The notes below the pieces were generated by a model, which saw nothing but the letters and a program-made list of their open reading frames with translations, was not told where the DNA came from and did no database searches. 64,000 bases of DNA from Hericium rajendrae (taxonomy: Eukaryota > Basidiomycota > Agaricomycetes > Russulales > Hericiaceae), in the NCBI GenBank assembly GCA_033439255.1, contig CM065878.1:434001-498000 (forward strand), written 5' to 3'. Shown piece by piece: positions 2,686-62,562 of this stretch. The translations under genes and the position numbers were made by a program. How positions within the stretch are numbered: position 1 is the stretch's first letter; every line of letters starts with the position of its first letter.

Positions 2686-2711
2686 AGACCTTGTTCGGCC
2701 GCACAAGGTCT
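2686..2711. repeat. 26-bp palindrome, GGCCG core
   Basis: AGACCTTGT and ACAAGGTCT flank a TCGGCCGC core, giving a near-perfect palindrome. A second copy in the same orientation lies at 3,446-3,471, and both recur in the other Z copy. Confidence 0.7.
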
Positions 2712-3445
2712 GGTGGCTGTGCTTAGCTTATGTCAGCAGTAGTTGATGTTGCGCTCTCTGCTTTCTCTTCTTTTCTTCAGATAGCTTTGAAGTCAGTGTG
2801 ATACTACCAGTAGTGCACACTAACTACAAGGCTTGGACACGCCCAGTTCCCATCTACAGTGAGTTGCGGCTGAGGTGTCCAATGATGGTGTAGGGCCATC
2901 ACCAACTTTTTGGATCTCTTCTGATGATGTGGCATAGAGATTGCACCATGGCCCTCTCAATACCACATGAATCAGAATGAGTGAAAGCTTGTTGGAATCA
3001 GATTTAGAATAGCTTTAGAATAGTGCCATAAACAGCAAGATAGCATGGCAAAATGCTGATCTATTGAACTATATGTCCGTGATGATGTGGCAGACTAATT
3101 GCTTTATAGCTCTGCTGATACTGCATCAATCATAATGTATGAGGGCTTATTGAAATTGGATTTACAGTAGCTTTCTAACAGTATAGTTTACAACATTATA
3201 GCACCACTTGTTGTTGAGATAGGTGACAATACTCTTTTGCTGATGTGGCACATAAATCGAGAAATATCTCTGCTTGGAGTGATCCGATTTTCATATTCTA
3301 AATTGGGTTGGAAAGATGTGATCAAACGTATTTGAACACAATTTACCGTTTGTCGATTGATTGCTTCGTTGCAGAGCTATAAAGCAATCACTGTATACAG
3401 TGTATTGGCTCTGTAGGCAACTTATGCTTATGTAAGCGGGCGCTA

Positions 3446-3471
3446 AGACCTTGTTCGGCCGCACAAGGTCT
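3446..3471. repeat. 26-bp palindrome, GGCCG core
   Basis: Second copy of the palindrome at 2,686. The ~735 bp between the two could be a mini-element bounded by them, but nothing else supports that. Confidence 0.7.
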
Positions 3472-3599
3472 TGTAGGATCACATGACCGACTCTCAGGAC
3501 CCACTGCTACCGATAAATTGCATTTTTTGCTCATTTTATCAATAAGCAGTATGTACATTTGTTTCCTGTGTATCATTTTAGTGGCTGTATCTTTCTATA

Positions 3600-4165
3600 A
3601 GCAGTAAATTGTGTTAGAGACCAGCTTTCTGGTATATTTGGATGCATTTGAGAACAAGTGAATCAGTTGAGTACTGATTAAGTTAGCTGGAGTTCAAGCA
3701 TTCTAGGGGGAAAATGTAGAAACAATTTGCATTCTGCGAGTTTTGCACCGATCCTAACGCCTAAGGTACCGTCAGAAAGCTATCAATAAGTAGATTCTGA
3801 TGCATTTTAGAACGAGTAAATTGGTTGAGAATTGGCCTAGTTAGCTAGGGTTCAAGCATTTTAGAAGAGGAAAAAAAGAAACACTTTGCATTCTGTGAGT
3901 TCTTAACCGATTTGGATGCATGAAGTATGGTAGCAAAGCTATAAGTGAGTAGATTTAGACGCATTTGAGAACGAGTAAATCGGTGAAGAATGGACTGAGT
4001 TAGCTCAAGTTCAAGTGTCATAGAGGGAAAATGTAGAAATTCATTGCATTCTATGAGTTCTGCACAGATCAGGGTGCAAAAAATACTATCAGAAAGCAAT
4101 AAATGAGCAGATCCAGATGCATTTGAGAACAGGTGAATTGGTTGAGAACTGATCAAGTTACATTA
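3600..4165 (-). repeat. ~160-bp tandem units (Z, copy 1)
   Basis: There are about three and a half degenerate units of 155-165 bp. On the minus strand each contains CAGTTCTCAACCAATTCAC-like, AAATGCATC-like, AACTCACAGAATGCAAAG-like and TTTTCCCCCTA-like segments. The same unit follows every Z-type head in this window. Confidence 0.7.
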
Positions 4166-4330
4166 AATCAAGAAAGTTTGGCCAGAGCTGGAGTTGAACC
4201 TGCAAACTCGTTAGATTGAAGATATGTGATTATATAAGCCAACTGCCTAATGGGCATAGTCATCGTTTTGGTGTCGTTTTCACTATGAAAAGGCGGTATA
4301 GAGTAAACGATTCTAAGGAATCGTAATAAA
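4165..4330 (-). repeat. tRNA-like head of Z, copy 1
   Basis: Read on the minus strand, it starts with the hairpin ACGATTC-CTTA-GAATCGT. Then come an A-box-like TAGGCAGTTGG and, about 50 nt later, a B-box-like GGTTCAACTCC. This is the internal Pol III promoter layout of tRNA-derived SINEs. The folded tRNA is not intact. The same head recurs at 18,957, 29,130, 31,312 and 31,766. Confidence 0.55.
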
Positions 4331-5279: not shown

Positions 5280-6458
5280 TCAGCTGTTACTCCAGGATAT
5301 CCTGGTAACCTGGAAATTTCCTGCCAGGGCATTTAGGGTCAACGCATGGTGCAGGTGTGCTCTGTGTAATGCAATCTGACCATTGGGACTTTGTTCTTGG
5401 TTCTTTGATATTTTTGATACAAGGTCATGCAAAAACAGAGGCTTTGCTTGGACTGGATGCAATTGTCCAAAATCACCTGTAATTATGACATTGACACCTC
5501 CAAACAGAAGATCACACGTGCCAGGATGCCAACTCTTAGCCTCTGCTATTCGTGCAGAAATCTGACTCAAAAAAAGGGCAGACACCATGGATACCTCATC
5601 GATGACCAGGTATTGAATGTCTTTCCATATCCTTGTTAGATCATCAATCTTAGTTTTGTTTTTTGATTTAGGCAGAAAGGTCAGAGCATGAATAGTATAT
5701 CCTTGAATTAAAACAGCTGCAATACTGGTAGGTGCACCCAGAAGTAATTTTCTTGAGGCATCCATACACTGAAATAACTCTACAATAGTCTTGATGACAT
5801 GACTTTTGTCCGTATCACTGATGCCTGCAACATGCATCATCAACTGTTTCAGGCTACCTGATGTGACATGCTCTGCTACTATCCTGACGGCCATCTCTTG
5901 CTCTGCATTTCTGTTGATATTCATTTCAGTTAGCAAATCATTGACTATAACCTGTTCGGCAGTTATATCATCACCAATCCTTTCATCACAGTGGTCGTCT
6001 GTCATTGTAAGTTCATGATTACTTGCTAGTCTATCAATTTCTACAGATGGGGGAATATTTTGCACAGGACCATTTCTATTACCTTCCAAGTTATTTTCCA
6101 TTCCACAATGCTCTTGAGGTCTCCGGTTTGTCTTATGTGCTTTCATAATATGCTGTTGATCTTGCACTTGGACATTTGAAACAGAAAATTTGTCACCTCT
6201 CGGAGAGCCACTGTTGCCAGCATTAGACGTACTGTGACAAGACAGAAGTCTTGCTCTTTTTAAAACATCTAGCGACTGCAAAACCTTAGCATCAATCAGT
6301 ATGTTTATTGGATCTGTTTTGCAGTTGTCTTCTTCATGTTCTATTCCATTTAATTTAGAGAGAATCAGAATGGTATTTGCATCTGCATTCATAATTGCAC
6401 TATCTTCCAACTCGTCATATAAGCCTGTCAATGCGGCCGTATTTGCATTATCAAACAT
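5280..6458 (-). pseudogene. Helitron Pif1-like helicase domain, degenerate
   Basis: In Helitrons this SF1B helicase works with the HUH Rep nuclease during rolling-circle transposition. The helicase match starts about residue 185: AEQEMAVRIVAEHVTSG, then a Walker A region reading GISDTDKS instead of GxxGTGKS, LLLGAPTSIAAVLI, a good Walker B (YLVIDEVSMVSA) and GDFGQLHPVQAKPLF (GDFxQLPPV-like). About 180 N-terminal residues are a low-conservation linker. The C-terminal third of a normal helicase is missing: homology fades after about 5,350. The altered Walker A argues against ATPase activity. Further N-terminal parts of the same Helitron lie upstream at 6,618-7,560, 15,302-15,544 and 18,174-18,765. 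Confidence 0.8.
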
Positions 6459-6617
6459 GCCATCTGCTTCACTGCAGCGATGAGCTTCATTGTAAGCAAC
6501 TTTTGCATCCTTGCATTCATTTTTTCCATTGAAGGCTGCTGTTCACAACTGCATGGGAATCTTCAAATTGCTAACATCTCTCCAAGGTTTGAACAAAAGG
6601 AGCATCATTCGACACCA

Positions 6618-7560
6618 TCATTCTTGTTCTTTGCTATCTCTATCTTCTCTTGGCATCGATGAACCAAGATAAAGAGGAGTAAGTGGTATGCATCTTAGAT
6701 AGATGACAAATGTGAGTCTTGAATTGAGGGTAGCATTCATCACAATTTGAAACTCAATCTGCTCAAGAATAACCATGCCTGTGTTGCAAGCCAATTGACT
6801 ATTTTTGCTTTTCACTGTAGTCTTCTCAACCAATGACACATATTGCCATACACATAATGCTTGAAATCTCGGTTGAGTGCTTTGAAATCTGTAATCTGGA
6901 AGTAAGCTTGATCCTGTCATATTTTCCTTTGTGATTTTCACTGTTATATTGTGTTCCAAATCATTAGCAACATCACCTCCATTTGCCACTCGCTCCTCCT
7001 GCATTCCATCCAAAACAACATCGCCAGATTCCTCAGCATCAACAATCTGTTCATGATCAATCAATGTTTCATTGTGAGCATGTCATTCAATTTCTTCTAT
7101 GTTAATTATGCCAGCATCCTCATTGTTTATCTCAATATTGTCCACACCATACAACACAACCTCTGCCTGCTGCATGAACTGATCCAACTCTCCAAAATAT
7201 AAAGTTCTGAAGGTGTTGCTAGTATAATGATCTCCTCCTCCTAGTAAGTATGCCATGACTTGTTGATGGGATAATTTCAAGCAACCCATCATTGTGTTTA
7301 CCACCTTAATGATCAAACTTTAATGCACAGTACTTTGTGCCATGTCATGATCATTAGCAAACTTGAAAACATTTGCCTGGACAGCATAGCAAAGGGCATC
7401 AAGACCCAGGTGAGTAGGCAGTGACACTTTAGTAATGTAGTCAGTAACATAATATATCAGCACCTTTGATGCTTCCCCTGAACCTATACATTTTATATCC
7501 ATATTACACTTCAGTAAAAAATATAATCAAATCATTGAAGTTGTTTATCCACTAGCCAAT
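6618..7560 (-). pseudogene. Helitron protein, middle region, broken
   Basis: Read from 7,560 down, the frames give INNFNDLII, NMDIKCIGSGEASKVLIYY, VTDYITKVSLPTH, then LSHQQVMAYLLGGGDHYTS and, lower, DYRFQSTQPRFQALC. These match the conserved block between the Rep and helicase domains of Agaricomycete Helitrons (NMDIKFIGSG..YVTDYITK..SHQQVMSYLxGGGDHYTS). Several frame changes and a stop near 7,317 break it into at least three frames. It continues directly into the helicase relic at 6,458. Upstream of 7,560 homology fades and a composite element end begins at 7,749. Confidence 0.75.
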
Positions 7561-7748
7561 GTAATAGAATACTAGGGAAGCACTGACTGCATCGGCATGA
7601 ACCTTGCTTGTCTTGACAAAAATAATTGTTACAAAGTGACTTTCCTCATGCTAGGTGGTTCTTATGGGTGCTGGATAATATTGTAAACTTCGAACATGGT
7701 ATACCTATGGCATTGAAGCTATTTACTGGACAACAGAATGCTGGACAG

Positions 7749-8014
7749 CATCAGAAAAATGTAAAATCTACATAGCTCTCAGCCAATGCTATGCTTTCTT
7801 CTATAGTGCTATGGTTGCTATATAGTTGGGCCACACATCTATATTGAACTATGAGAGCCACCATAGCTACCATAGCCATGGATGATAGCTATGTAGCACT
7901 ACATAGTAATAGCACAGTACTATGCCTGCTATGTAACTTATATATTTCTAGTTTCTCTCTATGCATGCTATGGATACTATGTTTAATATACAGCTTTATA
8001 ATGCAGTCAATGGT
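7749..8014 (+). repeat. ATAG-rich left end of composite element B
   Basis: It starts CATCAGAAAAATGTA, the same kind of end as A (10,375) and C (15,545). It runs through CATAGCTCT/ATAGCTATG-type words until the foldback at 8,015, and the ATAG-rich character resumes at 10,121-10,374. I infer that B was split here by the foldback and again at 10,375 by element A. A right-hand end of B was not found. Confidence 0.45.
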
Positions 8015-8384
8015 GTGACTTTCACCACAACCTATGGGCCAGACAAAAGTGGCCTAAAGCCGTAAGTTACGGGCTGGTCAAACCCAGCTGAAATGAGGAT
8101 TTTTGGTCCGTAAGCTACGGGCCAGCTGGATCTAGGAATAGACTATAAGTTACGGGTCAGCTTATATAGATGTGTACCATAGGTTACGGTGAAGCTGGCA
8201 GGGGGTATCTCTTGGGTGCCGGACTAATGAAATTAAATCAGAACCAGATCACTTTTTCTAGCTTCGGACTGCTTTTTTAGGGCTCGGACTAGTGGTTGAA
8301 AATTGAACTGGATTACATAAGATAACACAGGACTATGGACTATAGAAGATTATAGAATAGGACTATCAGACAGGACTTTGGACT

Positions 8385-8600
8385 TGTATTGAATAAGACT
8401 TTGGACTACTTCACAGGACTTCGGACTACTCTATAGGACTTTGGACTACTCCATAGGACTTCAGACTACTCCATAGGACTTCGGACTACTTAATAAAACT
8501 TCGGACTACTTAATAAAACTTTGGACTACAAAATAGGACTTCGGACTACTGAATAAAACTTCGGACTCTGAACTAGACTAAGGACTCTAGACTCTGGACT
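8385..8600 (+). repeat. 20-bp tandem array, left arm
   Basis: About ten units of AGGACTTCGGACTACTnnAT with TTT/TTC and AAAA variants. Confidence 0.8.
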
Positions 8601-9539
8601 TCAGATTGAGAACTTCGGATCAAGGATTATAAAATAGGACTATAGACAACAGACTTTGGACTAGGACTTAAAACTCTGGAACATGACTTCAGACTCTAGA
8701 CTACTACAGATCAAAGACTTTGGACTCTGGACTCTGGACTCTGAACTCCAGACCTCGGACCTCGGACTATAGTCTTCAAACTTCAGACTAAACCATTAAT
8801 TAGGTATCAGGACTAATCTAATGATAAAATCAAATTAAGGACTACAAAATAAAACAAAGGACTATAAAATAGAAGTAAGAACTACAAAGACAGATTTAAA
8901 ATCAGAAAATTAGCCTAAGGACTTTAAGATTTATGATCAGACTATGGACTATAAGATAGAACTACGAACTATAAATATATATTCTAAAATTATTGAACAG
9001 ACTAATTTGTATATAAAAAAAGGCTACTTGAGTTTTGAATTAAATTATTATAGGATGAAGAAAAAGAGCAGGACAAAACAATAGTAGCTAATGACAATCA
9101 AACTTTCAAGTTGACGTGTCTTTAGTTGTACAGCTACAAGACCCATATCTAGATTCTCGGTATTTGAGTCATAACAAATCAAATCAAATACTATAAAATT
9201 AGCAAAAATAACAGCATATACTTTCAACTCATATAATATTATAAAATGCAACAGATTTATATTTAAGATACTATAGTATATGAGATGGCAGATATAAGTT
9301 AGTAAAGTCTAAAAATTAGCCTCTGATGTTGTGCTCGGCAATCACCGACATATAGTCTGAGGTTCGAGGTCCAAAGTCCGGAGTTCGGAGTCTGAAGTCT
9401 TTGATCTGTAGTAGTCTAGAGTCTGGAATCATGTTCCAGAGTTTTAAGTCCTAGTCCAAAGTCTGTTGTCTATAGTCCCACTTTATAATCCTTAATCCGA
9501 AGTTCTCAATCTGAAGTCCAGAGTTCAGAGTCCTTAGTC

Positions 9540-9760
9540 TAGTTCAGAGTCCGAAGTTTTATTAAGTAGTCCGAAGTCCTATTTTGTAGTCCAAAGTTTT
9601 ATTAAGTAGTCTGAAGTTTTATTAAGTAGTCTGAAGTCCTATGGAGTAGTCTGAAGTCCTATGGAGTAGTCTGAAGTCCTATGGAGTAGTCTGAAGTCCT
9701 ATAGAGTAGTCCAAAGTCCTGTGGAGTAGTCCGAAGTCTTATTCAATACAAGTCCAAAGT
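9540..9760 (-). repeat. 20-bp tandem array, right arm
   Basis: This is the inverted counterpart (AGTAGTCCGAAGTCCTAT units) of the array at 8,385-8,600. Many CCGAAG units here read CTGAAG, i.e. CpG to TpG. Confidence 0.8.
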
Positions 9761-10699
9761 CCTGTCTGATAGTCCTATTCTATAATCTTCTATAGTCCGT
9801 AGTCCTGTGTTATCTTATGTAATCCAGTTCAATTTTCAACCACTAGTCCGAGCCCTAAAAAAGCAGTCTGAAACTAGAAAAAGTAGTCTGGTTCTGATTT
9901 AATTTCATTAGTCCGGCACCCAAGAGATACCCCCTGCCAGCTCCATCGTAACCTATGGTACACATCTATATAAGCTGACCTGTAACTTATGGTCTATTCC
10001 CAGATCCAGCTGGCCCATAGCTTATGGACCAAAAACCCTCATTCCAGCTGGGTTTGACCAGCCTGTAACTTACAGCCTTAGGCCACTTTTGTCTGGCCCA
10101 TAGGTTGTGGCCAAAGTCACTGTATTGTGTGTATAATGCTGCTATGGAACCTCAGGCTGCTATACAAGATATAGTGGTTGTAGAGTCTATATTTCGAGCA
10201 CTATAATGTATTACAACAATAAGGTATATATTAGACTCGACTACTACATACATAGCATATAAAGTGGTGCAACACGGGGGGTACGTGTTGAGCACGTGAG
10301 ATCCTCATCATCCCAGACTCGCCCACACTGTTGCTGACACATGCACAAGCCAAAACGGTGATGGTCACTGGCTTCATCAGGGAAATGGGAATTCTACATA
10401 GCCCAGTCTTAGATTATATGTTCTATCATAGCTCTCATAGAGCTATGTAATTACTCTTAGCAACTATATAGGGCTATGAGGACTATCATAGCCTAGCATA
10501 TCTTCCATAGTAGTAGGTCAAAGCTACATAGTGCTATATATTTATGGTGGGCAGCTATGGTTGCTTTATAGCCCCATAGGCTGGCTATAGTTGCTATGGC
10601 CACTACAATAAGTCAGCTAGAATCAAGCTATCTAGTGAGGTAGCTAATATTGGACAAATGATTCCGAAAAAAGTTTATTATTGATTATACTACTACAAT

Positions 10700-11680
10700 G
10701 CAATATAGCTACACCACAGCACACGATACGCACATGCAATCGGCTGTCATGCACAAGGCACGGGTGCCATACACGATGGTAAACAGTGTGCGGGGGCTAT
10801 GCGGCAGCTGCGGAGGCCGTAGCGAGCCGCGGGGATCACACAACACCAGCAGGGCCCCGCGCGGCACAAGCGGGGTCGTGCGGGACTGTACGCGCATTGG
10901 AGCGGCTGTGCGTGGCATACTGCGCGCAGATGAGGTCATGGCGGCCGTATGCTGCAAGTAAAGCCGCAGCGTGGGCGACGGTGTGCTGCTGGTCGTGCGC
11001 GCGGCAGGGCGGGGTGCACGGGTCGTGTGTGGCCGCGCGCAAGGCGAAGCGGTCGCGTAGGGTTCGTGCTTTGGGCCGTGCGCATGCTGGCGCGGTCGCA
11101 CTTGGCCATGCGCGAATGCATGGGACGAGACGATCGTAAGCGTGCGGCGGGCGGGGTAGAGCGGGGTGCGCAGGTCATGCATGGCCGTGCGTGAGCTGGC
11201 GTGGCCGTGCGCGCGTGAGCTGGCCACGCCTTGCGTGCACGAGTTGGCGCGACGTGCCCGCGGCATCTGGGTGTGCGAAGGTGTGTGCACAGTCAGAAAG
11301 CCTCGGTCCTCCCGTGCACTCGTGGGGCCGGGCTTGATTGCGCACTCGCATGCGGGAGTGCATGCACATGCTGGAGAGCCGTGCGCGCACAGCCACGTGT
11401 CATGGCTGCGAGCATGTCGTCGACGGCGCGGAGGTGTTGGTGCGCAGGGGTGGTGAGATGGACTCGCACGGACCTGTTGAGGGTGTACGAGGGTTGTTGA
11501 GGGCGTGCGGGGGGTGCAGAGAGCGCGTGAGGCGGACGTGTCATGCCCAGTTGCCACGGCAACGAGCCACCGACGCGAACGCAGACGGCGTCGTTCGGTG
11601 ATGGAGCCGCGGCGGGCTTGTAGACGTGGGCGTGGGGTGTCGAAGTCGATGGGGGTGTGGTGCGCGCGGTTGCGAGAAGT
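10700..11680. repeat. CpG-rich island of element A
   Basis: A sudden jump to high GC with many GCGCGC, CGTGCGC and GGCCGTGCG words in loose tandem order. All six frames stay open for long stretches only because stops are rare in such DNA; the 344-codon minus frame has no domain and a biased Arg/His/Pro/Thr composition. A GTTGCC-AC-GGCAAC hairpin lies at 11,550-11,563, matched in B at 13,482-13,515. Confidence 0.7.
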
Positions 11681-11686
11681 AAGCAT

Positions 11687-11715
11687 GAGTATCGCTCGTT
11701 GAACGAGTGATACTC
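11687..11715. promoter_or_regulatory. 29-bp palindrome, module A
   Basis: GAGTATCGCTCGTT and AACGAGTGATACTC flank a single G; 13 of 14 stem positions pair. Equivalent sites lie at 13,925, 16,815, 62,563 and 63,102, always at the island border. Confidence 0.7.
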
Positions 11716-11901
11716 GCGTTGTTAGTAGGAGAAAACAATGCAAGAGGTTTTTTTTACTTACCTATAAGCCGTCGTGGCACCCGCTAATCCCTCCCGACTT
11801 GCCCCCCGGCTGTTGAAGATGGCCGGCGTCGTGTATATGTCGAGAGAGACGAACTAGGGGAGACGAAGGGTGAAGCACAAGTCGAAACGTTGAAGTCGCG
11901 C

Positions 11902-11929
11902 GTTGAGTGCTTCAGCCACAGCACTCGAC
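11902..11929. promoter_or_regulatory. Hairpin 2, module A
   Basis: Stem GTTGAGTGC / GCACTCGAC with loop TTCAGCCACA. It is centred 215 bp from the palindrome and 251 bp before the TATA box. Confidence 0.65.
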
Positions 11930-12164
11930 TTGCGCACCTGGCAGTTTCGACTCTAACAAATCAAATCAAATCGTATCAATTCTGTAAAAAAGCGAGAATA
12001 TATAACGAATCGGTAGGAATACAATGAATGAGCTATCTATATACCTACTATACAATACGCTCAGGAGTGGTGCAATCCACCGAGTGGAATCTAACGGCCA
12101 GCCTCTGGCGCGATACCCGGCAACGTCCGGTCCGGCCTCGGCAACATTTGGCGCTTGCCATGTC

Positions 12165-12240
12165 TATAAAAGACCAGCGCAACGCGCATCGTCTCTCTCT
12201 CTTACCACCACCATCTCCTCCGTCTTCGAGCTCTTTCCTC
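12165..12240 (+). promoter_or_regulatory. TATA box and CT-rich leader, module A
   Basis: TATAAAAG is followed by CAACGCGCATCG and then a CT-rich run (TCTCTCTCTTACC..). The same order occurs in B (14,404) and, reversed, in C (16,389). It looks like a core promoter reading away from the CpG island. Confidence 0.6.
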
Positions 12241-12249
12241 TTCACTTTA

Positions 12250-12450
12250 TCTTTTGCTCTTGACTCTACTACTTATGGTAAGCTTTCTTTTGTTGTTGGT
12301 CTTATGTTCTTACACTGACTTGTATTCTCTTATTAGGTTATTAGATTTTTGCTTTTTGATCATATTGGTGAGTATCTATTGTAGGCTTCTTATATTTATT
12401 ATCTTTGTTAACAGTCTAGTGTATAGATTTTCGCTTTTTTCTAATGTTGG
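12250..12450 (+). repeat. Three exon-like T-rich units with splice borders
   Basis: The first ends ATG|GTAAGC at 12,277. The second (12,345-12,367, 23 nt) is preceded by TTATTAG and followed by GTGAGT. The third (12,427-12,449, 23 nt) is preceded by GTATAG and followed by GTAAGT. The two 23-mers share ATTTTyGCTTTTT and end in TTG, spaced 82 bp apart. Either tandem repeats or genuine micro-exons would explain this. Confidence 0.5.
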
Positions 12451-12952
12451 TAAGTTTTCTTATTTATATATAGCCTTGTGATAATATAACTGATTGTTAC
12501 TTTGTTAGATGTGTATAAGGATGTATAGTGTAGTTGTATAGTAGATTACAAATATCTGTTAAATTTTGAATATAATCTTTTTGATACAATCTTAAATTGT
12601 TTGATGTTTGATTTTTTTATGTAGTCAAAGTGAATATGAATTTGTAGACTTTTATGAAGTCTACTACAGTTATATAATACAGTCTAGAGATATAGCTGTG
12701 ATAGAGTTCATAAATATGTCTACTAAGTATAACTTATATCAGTTAGATATGTTCTATAGATTTCATAGCTAGATCTCCTAAAATAGATATTATAGCTATC
12801 ATAGGGCTACATAGCAACCCACTCAAGCTACATAGCACTACATAGCATCTCACTACAGCTATGTGAGCTATGTAGAACTTGACGTTGCTATGGCTCTAGG
12901 AAATCTATGTAGGACTTATAGAGCTATATAGGACCTACCCATTTCCCTGATG

Positions 12953-13880
12953 TTGTGCGTGCCTGCAGCTGAACGACCCATGCACGCACTGCTTGTGGTA
13001 TGGGCGCACAGTCCGGTGCACACGAAGGTGTGGCGTAGGCAGACGTATGCTGACGAGGACAGGCACAGAAGTGCATGTGCTGTCCGTGGCGTGCACATGT
13101 AGTCGAGGGGGTGAGCAGTGTGCAGCAGCCACGTGCTGGCAGGCATGCTTGCGCTGCCAGGGTCACACATGGGTTGCTTGGCTCATGCACGGGCTGCAGC
13201 TGTGCATGCATCATTGAGTCCGTGCGGGGCAGAGTGGGGCTCTGCACAACGTGCGTGCCATATGCACGCAGAACGGCGGGGCAGTACGCCAGCTATGCGA
13301 GTTGCGGCCGTATGTGAGCAGGTGCATGTGACCTTACACTGGCATTGTCATGTATACATTGGTCTGCGTGGGTTGATGCGAGCATGTGGCACCATGCACT
13401 GGCACTGTCGTTCGGGGCCGTGAGCGCATGCGTACAAGCATGCAGTGGCAGGTGGCACAGTACGAGGCCGCACGATGCATTGTTGAGTCTCGTTGCCACA
13501 GCAACGAGACTCGACACTGGCCTTGCTGGCCATCCGCGGGCCTTGAGGCATTGCGCGTGGGTGTTGGGAGTGTCTGCATGTGGGTGTTAGGATTGCCTGC
13601 ACATGGTGTTGGCCGAGCGTGAGCCGGTGGAAGCCCCCGCCATTGTTGCAGACATGTGTGCAGGATGGGGCCCGTTGATACCATGCGTGGGTGACATGCC
13701 GGGATGTCCAAGCACCCATGGGCTGCAGCAAACAGGCAGGGGGTCATGGGGACGTCGTGGAGTGATGTGTCAGTGGCACGGGAGTGGGCTGTCGAGTGCG
13801 AGGCGTGCGCTATCGAAGGCACGGGCGCGGGGAGGGAGACAGGTGTGAACAGTGTGTGAGAGGTGAGGAGGGGTGTCAAA
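12953..13880. repeat. CpG-rich island of element B
   Basis: GC-rich repeat DNA like that of element A but with more TG/CA words (TGCATG, GCACATG). It appears to continue leftwards to about 10,290 on the other side of element A. A strong hairpin lies at 13,482-13,515 (GTTGAGTCTCGTTGC / GCAACGAGACTCGAC). No gene is credible despite open frames on both strands. Confidence 0.55.
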
Positions 13881-13924
13881 GGGTGCGCAGGTGATCATGG
13901 GATATCGAAGAGCAAGTAAGAACA

Positions 13925-13954
13925 AGAGTCTCGCTCGATAATGAGCGAGACTCT
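13925..13954. promoter_or_regulatory. Palindrome, module B
   Basis: Perfect 12-bp stem AGAGTCTCGCTC / GAGCGAGACTCT with loop GATAAT. Confidence 0.7.
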
Positions 13955-14132
13955 CAAGATTAGTACGATATAGAGAGAATACAGGTGGTTTTTTTACTCA
14001 TCTAAGGCCCTTGACCTTTGCCTGATCCATCCGGCCTTCATCTTGATGTGGGTGATGAGGAACAATGACAGGAATGAGCTGAGAGGAAGGGGAATGATGA
14101 CTTGGAGTTCGAGACGAAGTCAAACGACACGC

Positions 14133-14157
14133 CGTTCGGTGCTTCAGCCACCGAACG
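14133..14157. promoter_or_regulatory. Hairpin 2, module B
   Basis: Perfect 9-bp stem CGTTCGGTG / CACCGAACG with loop CTTCAGC. It matches the stem of module C exactly. Confidence 0.7.
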
Positions 14158-14403
14158 TGCGTGAGTTCGAATGTCTTCGAACTTAGTAAAGCAGATAAAA
14201 TCGCAACAATTCCGAGAAAAAGATGGTAGATAGTGTTTGGTAATATTATTTGATTGAATGAGGTACATCTCTAAGTAAACTACTGAAAGCTACTGGGCAG
14301 TGAATCACACTTACTGAAATCTGGCATTTAGCCTCTGACATGGCACCCGGGCTGAGCTTCTGCAGCCACATTTGGGGCTCCGTCGGACAAACCTGCACTC
14401 ACC

Positions 14404-14560
14404 TATATAATCCTCGCATGATGCATGTCCTCTTTCTCTCTCCAACCCCCATCATCTCTCGTCTGTCATCTGTCGTCTCTCGCTCATCGTTTCTTGTGTC
14501 TCGCTCGTCATTTTTTGTCTCGCTCATCGTTTTTTTTTGTCTCTCACTCGTTGTTTTTTG
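14404..14560 (+). promoter_or_regulatory. TATA box, CT-rich leader and 27-bp repeats, module B
   Basis: TATATAATCC is followed by a CT-rich leader, then repeated TCTCGCTCATCGTTTTTTGT-like units (14,456-14,557) ending in a splice-acceptor-like TTTTTTGTATAG. Confidence 0.55.
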
Positions 14561-14719
14561 TATAGGGCACATGCGCTGAAGGAGCCATTAGTCTACTCTC
14601 ACCAGCTGGTTTGTGGGGTACTGAATATATGTGCTACAGCACTTTTACTATGCTGTGTGTGCTCAGTAGCATGCCCAAGTTCTTGCACATTGATACGAGT
14701 GATAAGCTTAGGATCAGCT

Positions 14720-15060
14720 GTGGGTACGATCGTATGTCCATTCGCAAGCAATGGCATGACAGATGTCGCCAGCGAGTCGAGCTGCAAATTGCATGATGAC
14801 AACATCGAAATCAGAGCCGACAATGGTGCGGATGTAAACATACAATCTCGCTATCGAGAGGCCGTTGACGGTGCGGTAGGTCATGCTGCACTCTGGGATG
14901 GGTCGTACTTATTGGTGGGGGCACAGGGGATACTTCGTGCACAGATGGGACAGATGCAAGCTGAGCCTGAAGGTCGAGAACAGCAAGCTCCTGCTTGGTC
15001 TTCTCCTCCTGAATCGCATCCTTCTTGTTCTTGATGCCAACTGTCGAGTAATGGGCAGGT
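14720..15060 (-). pseudogene. Possible captured coding fragment, unidentified
   Basis: The minus frame from about 15,060 reads HYSTVGIKNKKDAIQEEK, TKQELAVLDLQAQLASVPS, then a proline-rich tail. After a frame change a second stretch runs MTYRTVNGLSIARLYVYI, then SDFDVVIMQFAARLAGDI, ending with a stop near 14,720. Composition is protein-like (a short coiled coil, then a hydrophobic stretch) and unlike the surrounding repeats. I do not recognise the family. It lies where A and C have AT-rich sequence, so it may be cargo of B. Confidence 0.35.
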
Positions 15061-15301
15061 GTGATTCAAGTCACAGGTGTTGTGACTAGTCACAATGTCA
15101 GCTCTTCAAGTTGTAACTTCTTCCCCATCTAATTCTAACACAAAGGAGAGAAATAGACCATATCAGAAGTATAAGAGGTGATTGTCAATAATGAGAAAAA
15201 GGGTTCCGGTGCATGTTGGAGTGCTAGACAAAGAGTAAATAGGTGTGCTGCTCGAGGTGCCAAGCCTTTGTTTGTCACTGTTGATGATGTGAGTTATGGC
15301 G
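15061..15301. other. No recognised gene
   Basis: Mixed sequence between the possible cargo of B and the Helitron fragment. The right border of B should be here but no CTGATG-type end was found. Confidence 0.3.
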
Positions 15302-15544
15302 CTAATAATTACAGGGGTGCGAGAGATCTTGACAAGCAAGGTAACTGTAAGTTTCATTATCAAGCTCCATTATGGATTGTGTTGAATCATCAACTCTCAT
15401 TCGACAGTGATTGTCATCCCTTGGCTGTCCTGGCTTAAGATTTTTATAACAGGTGTCTCTATGTTTGTGCCAATTACACTTCTTGGCCAATGCCTTCATG
15501 AACTCTTGGAAATTATGCTGAAAAGTAACTTTTTCTTCTGCAGA
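15302..15544 (-). pseudogene. Helitron protein, Cys/His region fragment
   Basis: The minus frame reads SAEEKVTFQHNFQEFMKAL, then CNWHKHRDTCYKNLKPGQP and DDNHCRMRVDD. This is the W-H-x-H-x(3)-T-C-Y-K-x-L-K-P-G-x-P-R..C-R-x-R signature found between Rep and the NMDIKFIGSG block of Helitrons. It is cut on its upstream side exactly at the end of composite element C (15,545) and fades downstream near 15,310. Order and strand fit a single Helitron with 18,174-18,765 before it and 7,560-5,280 after it. Confidence 0.75.
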
Positions 15545-16019
15545 CATCATCAGATAAATGTGTAAGTGGTACATAGCTCTATAAAGTCTATATAGATTTC
15601 ATAGTTCCATAGCACTGCCCTTTTCTCTATAGCCAGCATAGCTAAAGGGGAATGCTATGTAGTGCTATGAAGCTAAAGGGTGATGCTATGAAGTGCTATG
15701 ATAGCTATAATAGCTAACTATGTAGCTATGATAGTCTAGCTAGCTATGAAAGCTATAAGTGTCTATTAAAGCTATAAGGCTTATGTGTCTTATATATTCT
15801 ACATTCAGTATGTGTCTCATATATCTTACATTTAATATGTGTCTTACATATTCTATATTCAATATCATATTAAAGCAATAAAATCTGTTGAAACTATGAA
15901 TATTTTTTACAGTCATATCAGAATTAGTAACATATGATCACACAAGTATAAACTATTTCAATGCATTAAGAGTATATTGATATCATGAAAACTACTACTA
16001 ATTAAAAAGCAAAAACATA

Positions 16020-16115
16020 AGTAAGAAAGTAAGAAAGTAAGAAATAAGATAAGATAAGATAAGTAGTACAAGATAAGATAAGTAGTACAAGATAAGATAA
16101 GATAAGATAAGTAAT
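16020..16115. repeat. AAGATAAGAT microsatellite
   Basis: Runs of AAGTAAG and GATAAGATAAG with AGTAGTACAA interruptions, inside element C. Confidence 0.8.
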
Positions 16116-16173
16116 CAAAGGTAAAAAAAAAAACATTAGTCTTGAAAGATAAAGATAACACATGAAAACTTAC

Positions 16174-16194
16174 CAAAGTAACAAAAAGCGAAAT
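16174..16194 (-). other. 21-nt exon-like unit with splice borders
   Basis: On the minus strand CTTTCAG precedes ATTTCGCTTTTTGTTACTTTG, and GTAAGTTTTC follows. It corresponds to the 23-nt units of element A. Confidence 0.45.
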
Positions 16195-16382
16195 CTGAAA
16201 GACAACTTAAAAGATATTAGTATTAGTATGAGCAATAAGAAAAAACAATGAAAGGTTACCTTAAAGACAACGAGCAAAGTAAAGAATGATGACGAGCAAG
16301 CAAAGCACGTCGACGAAGGCGTCGACGTGGCAAGAGACAGTGGGAGTTAAAGAGCAAGAGGCAACGCGCATCGCGCGAGCCT

Positions 16383-16389
16383 TATATAC
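16383..16389 (-). promoter_or_regulatory. TATA box, module C
   Basis: On the minus strand TATATAAGG is followed by GCGCGATGCGCGTTGCC and a CT-rich leader, paralleling modules A and B. Confidence 0.6.
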
Positions 16390-16622
16390 AAATCCTGGGC
16401 GGAGCCGGGATTTGTGGTTGCCAGGCGCTTGCCGAGCGTCGCGTCAGAGACTGGGCGCTAGACTTTATTATGTTGATGCTGCTGCTCAGCAATTCACGAT
16501 GCAGTAGATACATAGAATCCTCATTAATTCTGGTTTACTGTATGATCTATCATAGTATTCTTTTTCTCTGAATTGTTACAATTTTACTTGGTTTGTTAAA
16601 GCTCGAACAACGTAGCTTCGCT

Positions 16623-16648
16623 CGTTCGGTGGCTGTAAGCACCGAACG
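16623..16648. promoter_or_regulatory. Hairpin 2, module C
   Basis: Stem CGTTCGGTG / CACCGAACG with loop GCTGTAAG. The stem is identical to module B. Confidence 0.7.
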
Positions 16649-16814
16649 CGCGTCGAAGTCAGTCTTGTCCCTACCACCCTCACTCCCCTGTCTCGCCCGT
16701 TCGCCATCCCTCTTCTCGCTCCCATCGGATCGAACACCGGAGGAGGATAGTCAGATGCCGAGGGCCTCAAAAGTAAGTAAAAAAAGTCTCAATTCATCTA
16801 TTCGTACTAATCTA

Positions 16815-16847
16815 GAGAGTATCGCTCATTGGATGAGTGATACTCTC
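16815..16847. promoter_or_regulatory. 33-bp palindrome, module C
   Basis: GAGAGTATCGCTCATT and its partner ATGAGTGATACTCTC flank GG; one stem mismatch. Confidence 0.7.
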
Positions 16848-16859
16848 GACTTCTTTCGT

Positions 16860-17810
16860 CCTCCCACGCCCTCATCCCCTCTCGCCTCCAACTGCCGCCT
16901 ATCCCGCAACACCCTGCCCTCCGCCGACCTTGCCGCCATGCCGCCTCGCCGCCATATCACATTGCCACCACGTCGCTAGCGCCCAGCGCGTCGCCTCCAA
17001 TGACCACGATCAGCGGAGTGCGCACGGTCGTCCGCGACCCGGGATGGGCACGCCAGTGCACGCACATCGCACGGGGCCCTGTCCGTCCTTGCGACGTCTA
17101 TGCCATTGCGCCTTGCGTGCACGCCTGCCGCGTTGCGCACGGGCTCGCAGTAGCCCGACGTTTCGTGCCCGGCCCTGCGCCTCGTGCACGGCCCTGCCGC
17201 CCTCGACCCTCGCCCATGCCCCTCCACGCACCTTGCACTTTCTGCGTGCAGGTTACCGCATCACGCACGAACCCGCGGCAGTCTAGTGCCTCGCGCATGG
17301 GCCCGTGGCCGCCCGACGCTTCGCGCACGGACCTGCCACCCTCGACGCCTCACGCATGCCCTCGATGCCTCACGCACGCCCTCGGCGTCTTGCGCACAGA
17401 CCCTGCGCCTCGCGTGCAGGCTGCCGCCTCACGCACGAGCCCATGGCAACCCAGTGCTTCGCGCACGGGCCCGCCGCCCTCGACACTTCGCCCACAAGCC
17501 CGCGGTGGCCCAAGATCTCGCGCACGGGCCCCGTGCCTCGCGTACAGGCCCGCTGCCTGGCGTATGGGCCCCGCACCTCCTGCGCGCACGTCTGCTGCAT
17601 CGCGCACGGGCCCGCTGCCATCCAGCGCCTCGTGCATGCCCTGTTGTGCCTCGCGCACGGCCCTCCCGTCTCGCGCACGCAGGCCTGCTGCGCCTCGTGC
17701 GTGTGCGCCTCGTGTCACGCGCATCGGCCAGTGCGCGCACTCTCGTGTACGGGCCCCGGGCCCATGATGGCCTCCCGCGCCGTGGATGCATGCCCGCATT
17801 GGCCCTAATT
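16860..17810. repeat. CpG-rich tandem island of element C
   Basis: Loose tandem units of about 27-36 bp built on CTCGCGCACGGGCCCG. They translate as Ala/Arg/Pro/Ser-rich repeats in several frames on both strands. No domain is present, so I do not call a gene. Confidence 0.7.
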
Positions 17811-18173
17811 ACTTATTTACTTTTAATATAGTAGAATTAGCTGTTGTTTATTACTCCTGAGCCCATAATTTAAATATATTTTCAACCTAGACAATTGGCT
17901 TAAGGTGCTCTTGCCTTAGTATATTTTGGGGTTCTAGGTATGGTATGATAGGAATCATAGCATTGATAGCAACCCTATAATGTTATATAGCTAGCATAGC
18001 TGTCACTCAAAACTACATAGCTCTATATACCCACCACCAACAGCTATAGAACCTATGATAGGTCTTATAGAGCTATAAAGCTGTGCTGCCAAAATACATA
18101 GAGTGCATAGAACTATCATAGGAGCCATATCATTGGCTGGAAGCTATGTAGAAAACTGATTTTTCTGATGATG

Positions 18174-18765
18174 TTCTCATGATAATAAGGTGCATCTGTC
18201 ATCTGCACATCCACGTGATCACTTTTTGCTGGTTTCTTTGGTTGACTACATTGCGATGAAGGTATAGCTTCTGTCATATTAGGTAATTCATACTTCACAA
18301 TTGACTGTATCCAACTAAACATAGTCTCTTTAAAAGTTAAATCACGTATCATTCGATCTTGCAATTTTTGAGGTGATAAATTGCCTTAAATCCATATCAA
18401 CATATGGCAATGTAAAGTTCCACATCCTTGCGCTTTAACAGTACCATAATAAGCTTTAGAATGACTTACTATCTCCATGCTTCAAAATTATCTTAATAAA
18501 GGCTCGCATCATATGGTCAAAGAACAAAGCCACAGCCTTAGGGTGCTGAAACACCTCCTTCGCTCGAGAGAATGCATTCAAGTACTAAAAACTCTCTGAA
18601 GATCCTCCTGCCATCAAATGCATCAGCTTATGGTGGACATCAGCCAGATTGAGAGTGACAAAAAAAGCAGGACAACTGTGAGTTTTCAACATGGATTGAA
18701 TCTCATTTCATAACTGCAATTTACAACTGTTAGAACCTTTCAGGTCCTTCGAAATAAGACTCCAA
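18174..18765 (-). pseudogene. Helitron Rep (HUH) domain fragment
   Basis: Read from high to low coordinates, the frames give SCPAFFVTLNLADVHHKLMH, then VKAQGCGTLHCHMLIWI (the Rep HUH motif region, here H-C-H), GNLSPQKLQDRMIRD and FSWIQSIVKYELPNMTE. These match Rep blocks of Agaricomycete Helitrons (FVTxNPADVHHPL; GRGTLHCHMLVWLEG). There is a stop after MLIWI and others upstream. Its C-terminal side is interrupted at 18,173 by composite element C, and the next Helitron block resumes on the far side at 15,544. Confidence 0.75.
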
Positions 18766-18956
18766 CTATTTTGTTTATTTACTGTGTATAAATGGTTTTT
18801 ACTGTTTCTTTTTACTATTTATTTACAGAGTGCCTTGGAAACATAAAATATATAGTAAAGTAAAGAGTAAAGGGTATTGGTTATTAGTGCTAATAAGGTG
18901 CTAGAATGTTCAGGAACCAAAATATAAGTCATCTATACTCTGTGATTTTAGTGTTT
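18766..18956. other. No recognised gene
   Basis: AT-rich stretch between the Helitron Rep fragment and the left end of Z copy 2. Upstream Helitron sequence has decayed beyond recognition here. Confidence 0.4.
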
Positions 18957-19115
18957 ATTACGATTCCTTAGAATCGTTTACTCTATACCGCCTTTTCATA
19001 GTGAAAACGACACCAAAACGATGACTATGCCCATTAGGCAGTTGGCTTATATAATCACATATCTTCAATCTAACGAGTTTGCAGGTTCAACTCCAGCTCT
19101 GGCCAAACTTTCTTG
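18957..19115 (+). repeat. tRNA-like head of Z, copy 2
   Basis: It is the mirror of the head at 4,165-4,330 and identical as far as I can read. A-box-like (TAGGCAGTTGG) and B-box-like (GGTTCAACTCC) motifs follow the terminal hairpin, and the ~160-bp tandem units start right after it. Confidence 0.55.
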
Positions 19116-19690
19116 ATTTAATGTAACTTGATCAGTTCTCAACCAATTCACCTGTTCTCAAATGCATCTGGATCTGCTCATTTATTGCTTTCTGATAGTA
19201 TTTTTTGCACCCTGATCTGTGCAGAACTCATAGAATGCAATGAATTTCTACATTTTCCCTCTATGACACTTGAACTTGAGCTAACTCAGTCCATTCTTCA
19301 CCGATTTACTCGTTCTCAAATGCGTCTAAATCTACTCACTTATAGCTTTGCTACCATACTTCATGCATCCAAATCGGTTAAGAACTCACAGAATGCAAAG
19401 TGTTTCTTTTTTCCTCTTCTAAAATGCTTGAACCCTAGCTAACTAGGCCAATTCTCAACCAATTTACTCGTTCTAAAATGCATCAGAATCTACTTATTGA
19501 TAGCTTTCTGACGGTACCTTAGGCGTTAGGATCGGTGCAAAACTCGCAGAATGCAAATTGTTTCTACATTTTCCCCTAGAATGCTTGAACTCCAGCTAAC
19601 TTAATCAGTACTCAACTGATTCACTTGTTCTCAAATGCATCCAAATATACCAGAAAGCTGGTCTCTAACACAATTTACTGCTTATAGAAA
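19115..19690 (+). repeat. ~160-bp tandem units (Z, copy 2)
   Basis: This is the inverted twin of the units at 3,600-4,165, with the same unit length and order. Confidence 0.7.
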
Positions 19691-19810
19691 GATACAGCCA
19701 CTAAAATGATACACAGGAAACAAATGTACATACTGCTTATTGATAAAATGAGCAAAAAATGCAATTTATCGGTAGCAGTGGGTCCTGAGAGTCGGTCATG
19801 TGATCCTACA

Positions 19811-19836
19811 AGACCTTGTGCGGCCGAACAAGGTCT
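19811..19836. repeat. 26-bp palindrome, GGCCG core
   Basis: Inverted twin of 3,446-3,471 in the other Z copy. Confidence 0.7.
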
Positions 19837-20570
19837 TAGCGCCCGCTTACATAAGCATAAGTTGCCTACAGAGCCAATACACTGTATACAGTGATTGCTT
19901 TATAGCTCTGCAACGAAGCAATCAATCGACAAACGGTAAATTGTGTTCAAATACGTTTGATCACATCTTTCCAACCCAATTTAGAATATGAAAATCGGAT
20001 CACTCCAAGCAGAGATATTTCTCGATTTATGTGCCACATCAGCAAAAGAGTATTGTCACCTATCTCAACAACAAGTGGTGCTATAATGTTGTAAACTATA
20101 CTGTTAGAAAGCTACTGTAAATCCAATTTCAATAAGCCCTCATACATTATGATTGATGCAGTATCAGCAGAGCTATAAAGCAATTAGTCTGCCACATCAT
20201 CACGGACATATAGTTCAATAGATCAGCATTTTGCCATGCTATCTTGCTGTTTATGGCACTATTCTAAAGCTATTCTAAATCTGATTCCAACAAGCTTTCA
20301 CTCATTCTGATTCATGTGGTATTGAGAGGGCCATGGTGCAATCTCTATGCCACATCATCAGAAGAGATCCAAAAAGTTGGTGATGGCCCTACACCATCAT
20401 TGGACACCTTAGCCGCAACTCACTGTAGATGGGAACTGGGCGTGTCCAAGCCTTGTAGTTAGTGTGCACTACTGGTAGTATCACACTGACTTCAAAGCTA
20501 TCTGAAGAAAAGAAGAGAAAGCAGAGAGCGCAACATCAACTACTGCTGACATAAGCTAAGCACAGCCACC

Positions 20571-20596
20571 AGACCTTGTGCGGCCGAACAAGGTCT
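20571..20596. repeat. 26-bp palindrome, GGCCG core
   Basis: Inverted twin of 2,686-2,711 in the other Z copy. Confidence 0.7.
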
Positions 20597-23319
20597 GCTA
20601 TTGATCACGTGATTGGTCATTAGCTTTGTTCAACAATACAATGTTTGACATTGATCATATATTCAATCTTGAATCTTGTTTGATTTGTAGATATTACAAG
20701 TATTTATAATATAAGCATATATAATAGTGTATATCATATATCGAGCTGATTATAATAAGATATGACAAGTGTGTACTGTATTACATACCAGATTATATAT
20801 ATAATCAGGTACTAAGATATATAACATAGCAGAAAATGTAGAGTTATCAGAGGTAGGAGCTGAACTACTCATGATTAGATTAGATTAAATAGTGTTTTTT
20901 TATATGCTTTAGGGTTCGACACGAGTCAGAGTCACCTGTAGATCAACATGGGTATACCCACAAAATTGACCTGCAGGTATCTAACTTGTAGATCCAGATC
21001 ACCTGGTGGCTGAGACCTATACAAATCCAGATCAAGGTTGTGCTCAAACTCATTGACCTGTGAGTGACCTGTGGGTAACCTGCTATCCAAACTTTATTTT
21101 GGTTAACATATTATATTGCAAAGTTCAAATCTATATGTCATGATCCCTAACTAACTACATACTATATGTCATCTGCCAACACTAACTTACAGCTTCAATC
21201 ACATATGCCCATTATCACTATATCTTGTCATACCCATGAAGTGTATAAAGTCTACAAGCAAGGCATGGATTCAAAAGGCTGCATGCGACATACTTGTGGC
21301 ATCGACATGGGCATGTGCATGCCGGTGGGGCAGCTTTGAGTATGTGTGTGCACATGAGCTGGCACATGTGCAAGGGGAGCATATGTGGGTGCTGGTGTAC
21401 TGGCATAGCTGTGGGCATGCACACACAAATGATAATCACCAGCTTGGATGAAAATTGGGAATGAGACCGGGGAGGGTGCATTTTGATTGTTGAATAGCAC
21501 TAATGGCATATAAAACTTGCCTCACATTGGGCTTCTGTCAGACGAATGATATGACAGCATGCATAGTGGCATGTGTGATGTCCATGGGCATGAATGCACA
21601 CATGTAGTTTGAGCAATGGACTATGGGATGGTGGGGGCATGCAGTCAAAAATGTGTATGCTGGCAGGGCATGTATTGGTAGATGCACACTGTCTCAGACA
21701 TGCAAGGATATGCAAAGCTGTTTGTAGACAACTGCGTATTGTTGAGGCATGCTAGACACTGCTCAGATGATCAGCAAAAAGATGTCAAGCCTTGCTGTTG
21801 TAGCAACAATGCTGTAGCAACAAGACCTGACAGGCATTGTGGGCCTTGCAGTTGCAGCGCTAGACTGGCACTGTGCATGCTCTTACTGTTGTGAGTGGGA
21901 ATTAAATTTCTGGTGCACATGAGTGCTGGTTGTCGAAGATGGGTGAGGGCCGGTTGGCTGGTTGACCTGTTGATGAGGACGATGGGAGAAGCACAGATGG
22001 TACACGAAATATGGTGGATGATGTCAAAAAATGGTGGAATGTCATGAAACTCATCAAACATCATGAAACCTGTTGAAGAACAGTGAAAAATGAGAGCCTT
22101 GCCTGTTATCGAGTGAGACTCCTGAGATCAGCACAGTACAATGAAATAAAAGGCTTTTGGACTCACCTAGAAGCCTCTCGAATCTCCATAACACCCATCC
22201 TGCCATTGAATTGAGGAGATATGGTGAAAAGGGAAGGATTAAGATGAAAAAACAAAGAGGAGGGCATCGTAAAAGTGAGATACAACTTTAAGACCAACTG
22301 ACTTGCAAGTGATCTGTGATGTCACAGATACCTGACCTGCAGCTCCAGATCACCCAGTGGTGCAAATCTGCATGGATCCAGGTCAGCACCTTGGACAGAT
22401 TGAATACCTGCAAGTTCAGATCTAAGTCACCCACGAGTGCACTTGTGTTGAACCCTAATATACTTAAAGTGATGTTTGCACAATTGATGCTCTCAGGCAT
22501 TTGTATAAGTTTTTTGTTACTCTAAACCTTCATGCTAATCGACAGGCAATTTTACCAGAAAGTAGTTGCCATATTTGGTCACTAATTTCTGCCAGTATAC
22601 AAAATATGATTTGAAGGTAAGAATTCAATTTTTATAGTATTTTATGCATGTAAAATAGAAAAATACTGACTAGATTATACATTGAAGAGATATAAGCTCT
22701 ATTAAAAAAAAAACTGATATGATTTATGTTATTTTTTGTAAAAGTCAGAAAAAAAAATCCAAATATAGAAATTAAATTCTGCCTTTGGTGCTAGCAGCAA
22801 TGCATACAAATCAATAGAAGGTACACAGGCTAACAGAAAATGTATGAGGTAGTAGAAGCATACATAAGTTTGTTGTGATGCTCATAGGTTGATACATGTG
22901 TAAGCTAATCAACAAAAGTATGCATAGGTCAAAAAATGTGAGCCAAGAGTGCATATATGAGTTGGTGTAGTGTGTATCATCTGAAAAATTGAAATTTCAT
23001 ATAGCCCAGTATTGATCTATATGTTTTATCATAGCACTATAAGGTCTATCACTATTTATGCCACCACAGTTCTCAACTATGTAAGACTATGAGGCCTATC
23101 ATAGCTATCTAACAGTAGTTGGACACTATATAGTGCTACATGTTTCTGAAGGATAGCTATAGTTGTTGTACAAATCATATAAATTCAAAGGCTTGCTCTG
23201 ATCTATATGGTCCCTACTATGATCTCTGCTATTAGTACTGTCTCAGATCAATCAGGTACAAGAGATATAAAGCCAAAATCAATTATATTTCATATAGCTA
23301 CTAGTACAATCAAGTATAT

Positions 23320-29820: not shown

Positions 29821-30043
29821 ACTTGAGGGAAGAGGGCCGATGCTCTGCACAGCAATACGATTCCTTTTGAATTGTTCTAACTTTGTAGTGTTATTCTCAC
29901 AGAATTAATAAGATAATAGAGAATTGAATATACTGGTATTGTAATGCTGCAAAGATCTCCATCTTCAAAGTATATTGTTTTACACTTATCTCTTATTTTT
30001 AAACTTTGTTACCAGCAAGAGTTGAACTAATGACAAAATGATG

Positions 30044-62560: not shown

Positions 62561-62562
62561 AC

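Follow-up and report, generated by a model that had tools for sequence, protein, structure and literature searches.

The question raised by this locus is how a transposon that encodes no recognised protein is moved, and why the sequence between its ends is conserved. Two such elements, designated A and C, lie in opposite orientations in a 64,000-nucleotide (nt) stretch of the Hericium rajendrae genome (contig CM065878.1, C1:434001-498000; hereafter the window), and genome searches were run over 19 contigs (46.8 Mb). The common picture of a non-autonomous transposon is a pair of ends with nothing but passive filler between them. A and C are probably non-autonomous transposons of the PlavakaB (CACTA-like) type that would be moved in trans and that carry a conserved non-coding cassette.

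Element A is complete, is 2578 bp long and occupies positions 10375-12952 on the forward strand; it has a 97.4% identical copy on contig C17. The terminal inverted repeats of A (left, 10375-10389, forward; right, 12938-12952, reverse) are CATCAGGGAAATGGG and CCCATTTCCCTGATG, 15 bp with no mismatch between the arms, so the CATCAG-type ends of the preliminary description of the locus were read correctly. They are flanked by the target duplication TT (10373-10374 and 12953-12954). The alignment of A with the C17 copy runs 1 base beyond the left end and 11 bases beyond the right (the common TGCGTGCC), after which the flanks diverge, and the 2-bp duplications differ, TT for A and GT for the C17 copy. 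Element C (15548-18170, reverse strand) is also complete, with CATCAG at 15548 and CTGATG at 18170, and is flanked by AT (15546-15547 and 18171-18172). The bounds first proposed for A, 10,375-12,952, were exact. Those for C, 15,545-18,173, were 3 bp too wide on each side, and the two elements differ in length by 45 bp (2578 versus 2623 bp) rather than by 51 bp.

When the flanks of C were joined, they matched C14:237230-237520 at 73%, colinearly and with no insert across the site. This empty site in a diverged relative of the flanking sequence, which was sought for C only, supports the earlier claim that C cleanly splits a coding sequence; the flank is taken to be a Helitron, and two short flank pieces of C gave no match in Pfam. 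The possibility was considered that the ends are chance matches inside a longer repeat, and it was excluded by the breaks at the ends, the duplications and the pattern controls.

The 15-mer of the A end was found at 20 exact places in the genome and, with up to three mismatches, at 829+807 places compared with 253+286 for a reversed control. A 28-bp right-end pattern of a sister subfamily was found at 80 places, its control at none. Searches with the left end of A, the core of A and the left end of the sister subfamily returned 121, 169 and 230 candidates, of which the best 40 were scored in each case, and the match totals are lower bounds; 37 of the 40 scored core regions were 70-76% identical to A. 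The loci studied were 20 stretches with core matches, drawn from the best-scoring. Among 23 core loci, A and its copy included, the motif search located the two ends of 17, which are 2577-3125 bp long. Six loci in which one end was not found by motif (L012, L013, L019a, L019b, L020 and L026) stand outside the 17, and a split A-like core in L010 stands outside the 23. A 2-bp target duplication was present in 15 of the 17 copies, where 1 in 16 is expected by chance, C being counted separately. Copies of the same subfamily at unrelated sites are about 97-99.8% identical (L022/L024/L025, 99.4-99.7%; L017/L018, 99.3%; L011/L012, 97.7%) and, the 11-base right overshoot of the A pair aside, break off no more than a few bases from CATC/GATG, indicating that movement of the family has been recent. 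The many loci with paired inverted ends and the same internal order that had been anticipated were thus found, together with the empty site of C, and A and C are complete copies of a mobile, multi-copy family.

The preliminary description could not assign the elements to a named superfamily. That conclusion was not supported: the CATC..GATG termini and the 2-bp duplication fit PlavakaB, as do the right ends seen in three Plavaka pairs from this genome, and a previously unclassified repeat of this genome can now be placed with that group. In the passages of Kojima 2025 (PMC12730594) drawn on here, PlavakaB has termini CATCA..TGATG and duplications of 2 or 3 bp and is allied to CACTA/EnSpm; Plavaka and Kyakuja-Dileera-Zisupton (KDZ) transposase groups are reported from mushroom-forming fungi (PMC12730594, and likewise in part PMC8290104). 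Exact CATCA..TGATG termini were found in A, its C17 copy and C, and the duplication of 2 bp in the 15 copies and in C lies within the PlavakaB range. The right ends of all three recent Plavaka pairs compared begin CATCTG or CATCAG and read inward CATCTGGAAAAAGTG, CATCAGTAATTTAGG and CATCAGGAACCCTTGG, the same kind of right end as in the family. A Plavaka-type end pattern had four exact places, all about 1.5 kb from a Plavaka match, and 24 more places with 1-3 mismatches. Plavaka match pieces numbered 132 in this genome and 0 in 14 control genomes. Short terminal inverted repeats together with arrays of short subterminal repeats are typical of CACTA-like elements, and the ATAG-rich ends of the family are of this kind.

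The earlier statement that the elements encode no protein held in the sense that none was recognised. The open reading frames (ORFs) in the CpG islands of A, of C and of a third, broken element, B, gave no match in Pfam, neither to the DDE transposase that PlavakaB encodes nor to any other family, and A has no ORF of 150 amino acids or more outside its island. The family is considered non-autonomous because its ends and duplication are PlavakaB-like but no transposase was recognised in it. Judged by those ends and that duplication, mobility in trans by an enzyme of the Plavaka class, with no particular enzyme named, is well supported; the identity of the transposase itself we infer.

Three other groups were rejected. 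Although 172 KDZ match pieces are present in the genome, KDZ was excluded as the mover because the duplication is 2 bp and not the 7 bp of Kyakuja or the 8 bp of Zisupton given in the passages used (PMC12730594). In the same source, canonical CACTA/EnSpm has 5'-CAC termini and a 3-bp duplication, whereas the family has CATC termini and a 2-bp duplication, and the TGT..ACA termini of PlavakaA are not those of the family.

Between the ends, A and C have the internal order that was originally described: ATAG-rich end, CpG island, palindrome, hairpin, TATA, exon-like units, AT-rich sequence and ATAG-rich end. On the reverse-sense side there is a predicted intron of about 45-50 nt, in which AG is followed by GTAAGTAAAAAA...TACTAAY...GAG and whose acceptor abuts a palindrome of the form GAGTNNN..NNNACTC. 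In A the predicted 49-nt intron (GTAAGT..TACTAAC..GAG) is at 11713-11761 and the palindrome, the start of predicted reverse-sense exon 2, at 11687-11715, both on the reverse strand; the counterparts in C are at 16773-16819 and 16817-16845 on the forward strand. When 31 reverse-sense units, picked because they hold the palindrome, were read by aligned column, the donor was GTAAGT in 23, GTGAGT in five and GTATGT in one, that is, canonical in 29 units in three functional forms, and was lost in two (B and L011_6666).

The palindrome pattern GAGTATCGCTCGN5CGAGCGATACTC occurs at 122 places in the genome, compared with one for its control. Among 29 distinct units, which were chosen for holding the palindrome (a choice that favours pairing) and many of which are close relatives, 98.0% of 348 cells were paired, versus 94.1% after shuffling and 22-43% in slid controls. 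Changes on both sides were seen in five of the 12 pairs, a number reached by 13 of 500 shuffles; the covariation score and the level of paired cells were reached by none of the 500. In L013, a related element at positions 6260-8120 has three tandem units, each of donor, mini-intron, palindrome and GC-rich sequence, beside TCTGA-rich repeats like those of the Plavaka element L033.

The second hairpin of A, GTTGAGTGCTTCAGCCACAGCACTCGAC (11902-11929), has a stable fold. It folds well in five of the 11 elements folded (A and its C17 copy, L017, L023b and C), and was rejected as a universal structure of the family. The island of A also contains an RFX/X-box-type site, GTTGCCACGGCAAC (11550-11563, reverse strand). 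Of 18 elements, 13, a good number of which are nearly identical to one another, carry the corresponding word GTTGCCNNRGCAAC, presumably bound by RFX, where 0.00-0.03 are expected per shuffled island. The strict site is absent from L011, L015, L021, L023b and C.

In the forward sense, a TATA box lies at 12165-12172 in A (forward strand), where conservation of the element is highest, and at 16381-16388 in C (reverse strand). The order is TATATAAG (TATAAAAG in A), a CT-rich leader, an ATG with splice donor, and microexons. The leader ends in ATGTTCG directly before GTAAGT in the CATCTG subfamilies shown and in ATG directly before GTAAGC in A; C has no such ATG. Read from the sequence of A, predicted intron 1 (GTAAGC..TTATTAG) occupies 12278-12336, predicted microexon 1, with TTTTTGCTTTTT, 12337-12367, and predicted microexon 2, with TTTTCGCTTTTTT and then GTAAGT, 12420-12449, all on the forward strand. 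The predicted microexons, two in A and one in C, are about 28-32 nt long, hold TTTTCGCTTTT or a close form and lie between good introns. Forward exon 2 is 29, 30 or 32 nt long, and the reading frame is therefore not kept.

The distribution of CpG along the elements is polar. In A, the left ATAG-rich region (10375-10640, forward) has a CpG observed/expected ratio (o/e) of 0.08 over the first 350 bp and the right one (12760-12952, reverse) 0.16 over the last 600 bp. The island of A, at approximately 10740-11680 (reverse), which is also the predicted long exon 2 of the reverse-sense transcript, has a CpG o/e of 1.20 and that of C, at approximately 16860-17790 (forward), 1.17, both at element positions 400-1250. 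Across 18 elements the ratio was low at both ends, at 0.00-0.15 (left 350 bp) and 0.00-0.16 (right 600 bp), against 1.16-1.29 for the island and 1.03-1.47 for the core. The lack of CpG in the ends is not an evident mark of decay, since TpG/CpA there is 0.94-1.12.

When eight subfamilies were aligned, mean identity was 0.43-0.58 in the island, which hardly aligns, 0.72-0.79 in the left 300 bp and 0.67-0.84 in the right part. In the core it was 0.72-0.89 for most of the length and 0.51-0.63 in one variable stretch. A core of about 560 bp, which includes the palindrome with its compensatory changes, is kept by sequence, the subfamilies being 24-30% apart in it. The earlier suggestion that structure rather than sequence is kept applies to the island only and fails for this core, as the identity of the scored core regions to A also indicates. 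In the island, composition is kept while the sequence turns over, because CpG o/e stays at 1.16-1.29 although the island hardly aligns.

Relic B offers a comparison, as it looks like a broken older relative of A and C. Its island, palindrome (13926-13953), intron and core lie at 12955-14560 (forward), and a left end is inferred at 7749 (7749-7990, forward; 69.5% identical to the ATAG end of C), in which case both an inverted-repeat element and A would interrupt B. The inverted arms at 8015-8760 and 9355-10120, about 750-770 bp and 91.8% identical, form a fold-back element that seems to split the relic. The island of B has a CpG o/e of 0.74 and a TpG/CpA of 1.91, versus 1.38-1.58 in 18 complete elements, indicating CpG decay, and the reverse-sense intron has lost its GT donor. 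Because 29 of 31 donors are working forms and the palindrome covaries, while B shows donor loss and CpG decay, the cassette appears to be under constraint in the mobile lineage and not to be inert filler.

A mechanism can be proposed for these features. A Plavaka-class transposase supplied in trans would cut and paste A and C, recognising the CATC..GATG ends and the ATAG-rich, CpG-poor subterminal repeats, and would leave the 2-bp target duplications. Between the ends, a CpG-rich divergent promoter would direct, one way, a predicted TATA-driven transcript with microexons and, the other way, a predicted transcript with one intron of about 45 nt, the palindrome at its splice acceptor and a CpG-rich exon. 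The cassette, which is presumed to be expressed, would be kept because transcription, CpG-rich open chromatin, or both, leave the copy unmethylated, unsilenced and within reach of the transposase, and would be selected in cis. That the cassette serves to have its own element transcribed or its chromatin open is a tentative reading of the conserved signals. A fuller version is more doubtful, namely that a protein-free family is under selection on its own transcription, with CpG kept out of the transposase-binding ends and concentrated in a central RFX-responsive divergent promoter, and that a spliced RNA starting with the hairpin, or the making of that RNA, keeps the copy unsilenced and open to the transposase of others. 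If true, the cassette would be a cis-acting, protein-free anti-silencing device. Selection beyond the ends can be read from the sequence, because promoter-like signals, splice sites and a palindrome that pairs persist in several subfamilies although no protein is recognisable there, and evasion of CpG-methylation silencing through an element's own non-coding promoter becomes a testable question. In another mushroom, source copies of active transposons have low CpG methylation, according to the part of that report used here (PMC9674265).

Several observations weigh against this interpretation. Fifteen of the 17 scored copies have CATCTG..CAGATG rather than CATCA termini, a form that occurs also in the Plavaka coding pair L029/L030, and two copies, L014 and L027, have no 2-bp duplication. 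No autonomous partner sharing these ends was found among the matches listed: when the end lists were compared by eye with the Plavaka list, no Plavaka match lay clearly inside the listed ends, and there was one loose candidate, at about 1.98 Mb on C12. Among the 50 palindrome places listed of the 122, one lay within 10 kb of a Plavaka match, and its ends make it a separate neighbour (the 50 places were compared with 80 merged Plavaka starts, and the isolated place C7:431353 was left out). The islands of the 18 complete elements, with their TpG/CpA excess of 1.38-1.58, are not wholly undecayed, and their high CpG may be due solely to the young age of the copies in the active lineage. Palindrome symmetry can come from DNA repair, so that covariation by itself is no proof of RNA function. 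Finally, reverse-sense frame 0 of the A island has no stop in 324 codons, which 0 of 100 shuffles reached.

The main rival explanation is a deletion relic: an autonomous PlavakaB element with two genes would have left behind its divergent promoter and first exons as the cassette, which is copied passively and without function. Such a relic would fit the two genes often found in CACTA-type elements, the ATG that closes the forward leader at or immediately before the splice donor in 10 of 11 elements (C being the exception) and the lack of any recognisable coding body. However, subfamilies 24-30% apart in the core keep the TATA box, donors, branch sites and palindrome next to an island that no longer aligns, and nine Plavaka pieces of the genome (L029-L037) gave no match to the core; a passive relic is a possible but rather doubtful origin. 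The compensatory changes of the palindrome and the kept splice signals could also mean that the element acts through RNA in trans, the hairpin-exon or microexon transcript being a functional non-coding RNA, for example in silencing evasion or transposase recruitment, and the three tandem palindromes of L013, each with a donor and mini-intron before it and GC-rich sequence after it, point the same way. Yet DNA would be expected to show the symmetry just as well, the palindrome has wobble and A-C mismatches whichever strand is read, and Rfam gave nothing above threshold in window 10000-18500, where two sub-threshold matches (U6-like and ssnA-like) were judged to be chance. A role for RNA in trans is unlikely.

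Capture of a host promoter or gene fragment (transduplication) would explain why the RFX-type site and the TATA box resemble parts of a host promoter, and the host genome has one RFX-domain match. Of 33 places matching a 30-base core pattern, however, all 20 that were looked at have at least one element end nearby, which makes such capture quite improbable. It is more improbable still that the island or the microexons encode an unknown protein. Stop-free reverse-sense frames are present in three of the 10 islands tested, A, L014 (frame 0, P 0.07) and L010b (frame 1, P 0.11), and long frames also in L003, L005, L007 and L038. But the other seven islands have no such frame, the open frame of L010b is a different one, and no stop-free frame is common to the 10, so a protein-coding island is not supported for the family. 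L003 and L038 each have two long frames at once on the reverse-sense strand, as composition alone would give, and neither the lengths of forward exon 2 nor the Pfam searches of A, B and C favour a protein.

The preferred reading, a PlavakaB-type element moved in trans with a cis-acting cassette, has partial parallels elsewhere. The family resembles PlavakaB, as described in part in PMC12730594 (Kojima 2025), in its CATC..GATG termini, 2-bp duplication and short inverted repeats. It differs in its lack of a recognised transposase, in the CATCTG start of 15 of the 17 copies and in its cassette, which is non-coding, CpG-rich and divergent and contains a palindrome and introns. In Marasmius oreades, non-autonomous DNA elements are likewise non-coding derivatives classed by ends and duplication, and most of the active ones have low CpG methylation; in the portions of those reports drawn on (PMC8290104, PMC9674265) they are mostly shorter than 1 kb, whereas the present elements are 2.6-3.1 kb and carry a conserved promoter-like cassette. 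The anti-silencing target regions of VANDAL elements (PMC10398659) are also fast-diverging non-coding regions that govern silencing, but they work through the encoded VANC protein, with no palindrome-intron unit described in the passages used, while the present family has no recognised protein. No description of the cassette was found among open-licence PubMed Central papers, and searches there with the end and palindrome words gave no transposon paper by title among the matches listed. The maize CACTA element En/Spm has subterminal repeats, a GC-rich region beside the promoter and promoter activity tied to methylation; it is autonomous and one-sided, whereas the present elements have their GC-rich part in the middle, between CpG-poor ends.

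Among the Plavaka elements of the genome, the left ends of L029 and L031 were not found in the stretches examined. L033 and L034 (C12:972k and 990k) are near-identical and inverted; the left CC and right TA of L033 differ, and the left CC of one fits the right CC of the other, so the flanks look exchanged, as inversion between the two copies would give. Stretches of 14-15 kb with CATCAGGAAAAAGTG inverted ends were found at C2:1810067-1824229 and C9:1470233-1485258, one flanked by TCT/TCT (a 3-bp duplication) and the other by GA/CG. Fifteen KDZ matches cover the same span (positions 76-217, 160 amino acids, one TGA) with near-equal scores and are probably a young, uniform KDZ family.

The whole A-B-C region is flanked by a 4.33-kb inverted duplication (window 1-4330 and 18954-23281, 99.9% identical), each copy of which has one more CATCTGAA-type end (305, reverse; 22978, forward). 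A further palindrome-intron unit lies at the end of the window (62479-62650), beside a GC-rich stretch at 61.0-62.5 kb whose CpG o/e of 0.55 and TpG/CpA of 1.87 indicate more decay than in complete elements. Elsewhere in the window are three copies of a 1.4-1.5 kb repeat unit in two orientations (29820-31311, 32024-33426 and 38876-40368; 90-97% identical) and a retrotransposon at 42749-48438, taken from its translations to be Copia-like, whose direct end repeats of 257 bp are 94.6% identical and whose long frames resemble gag-pol. A 1.9-kb near-perfect palindrome, 97.3% identical to its own reverse complement, occupies 55014-56915.

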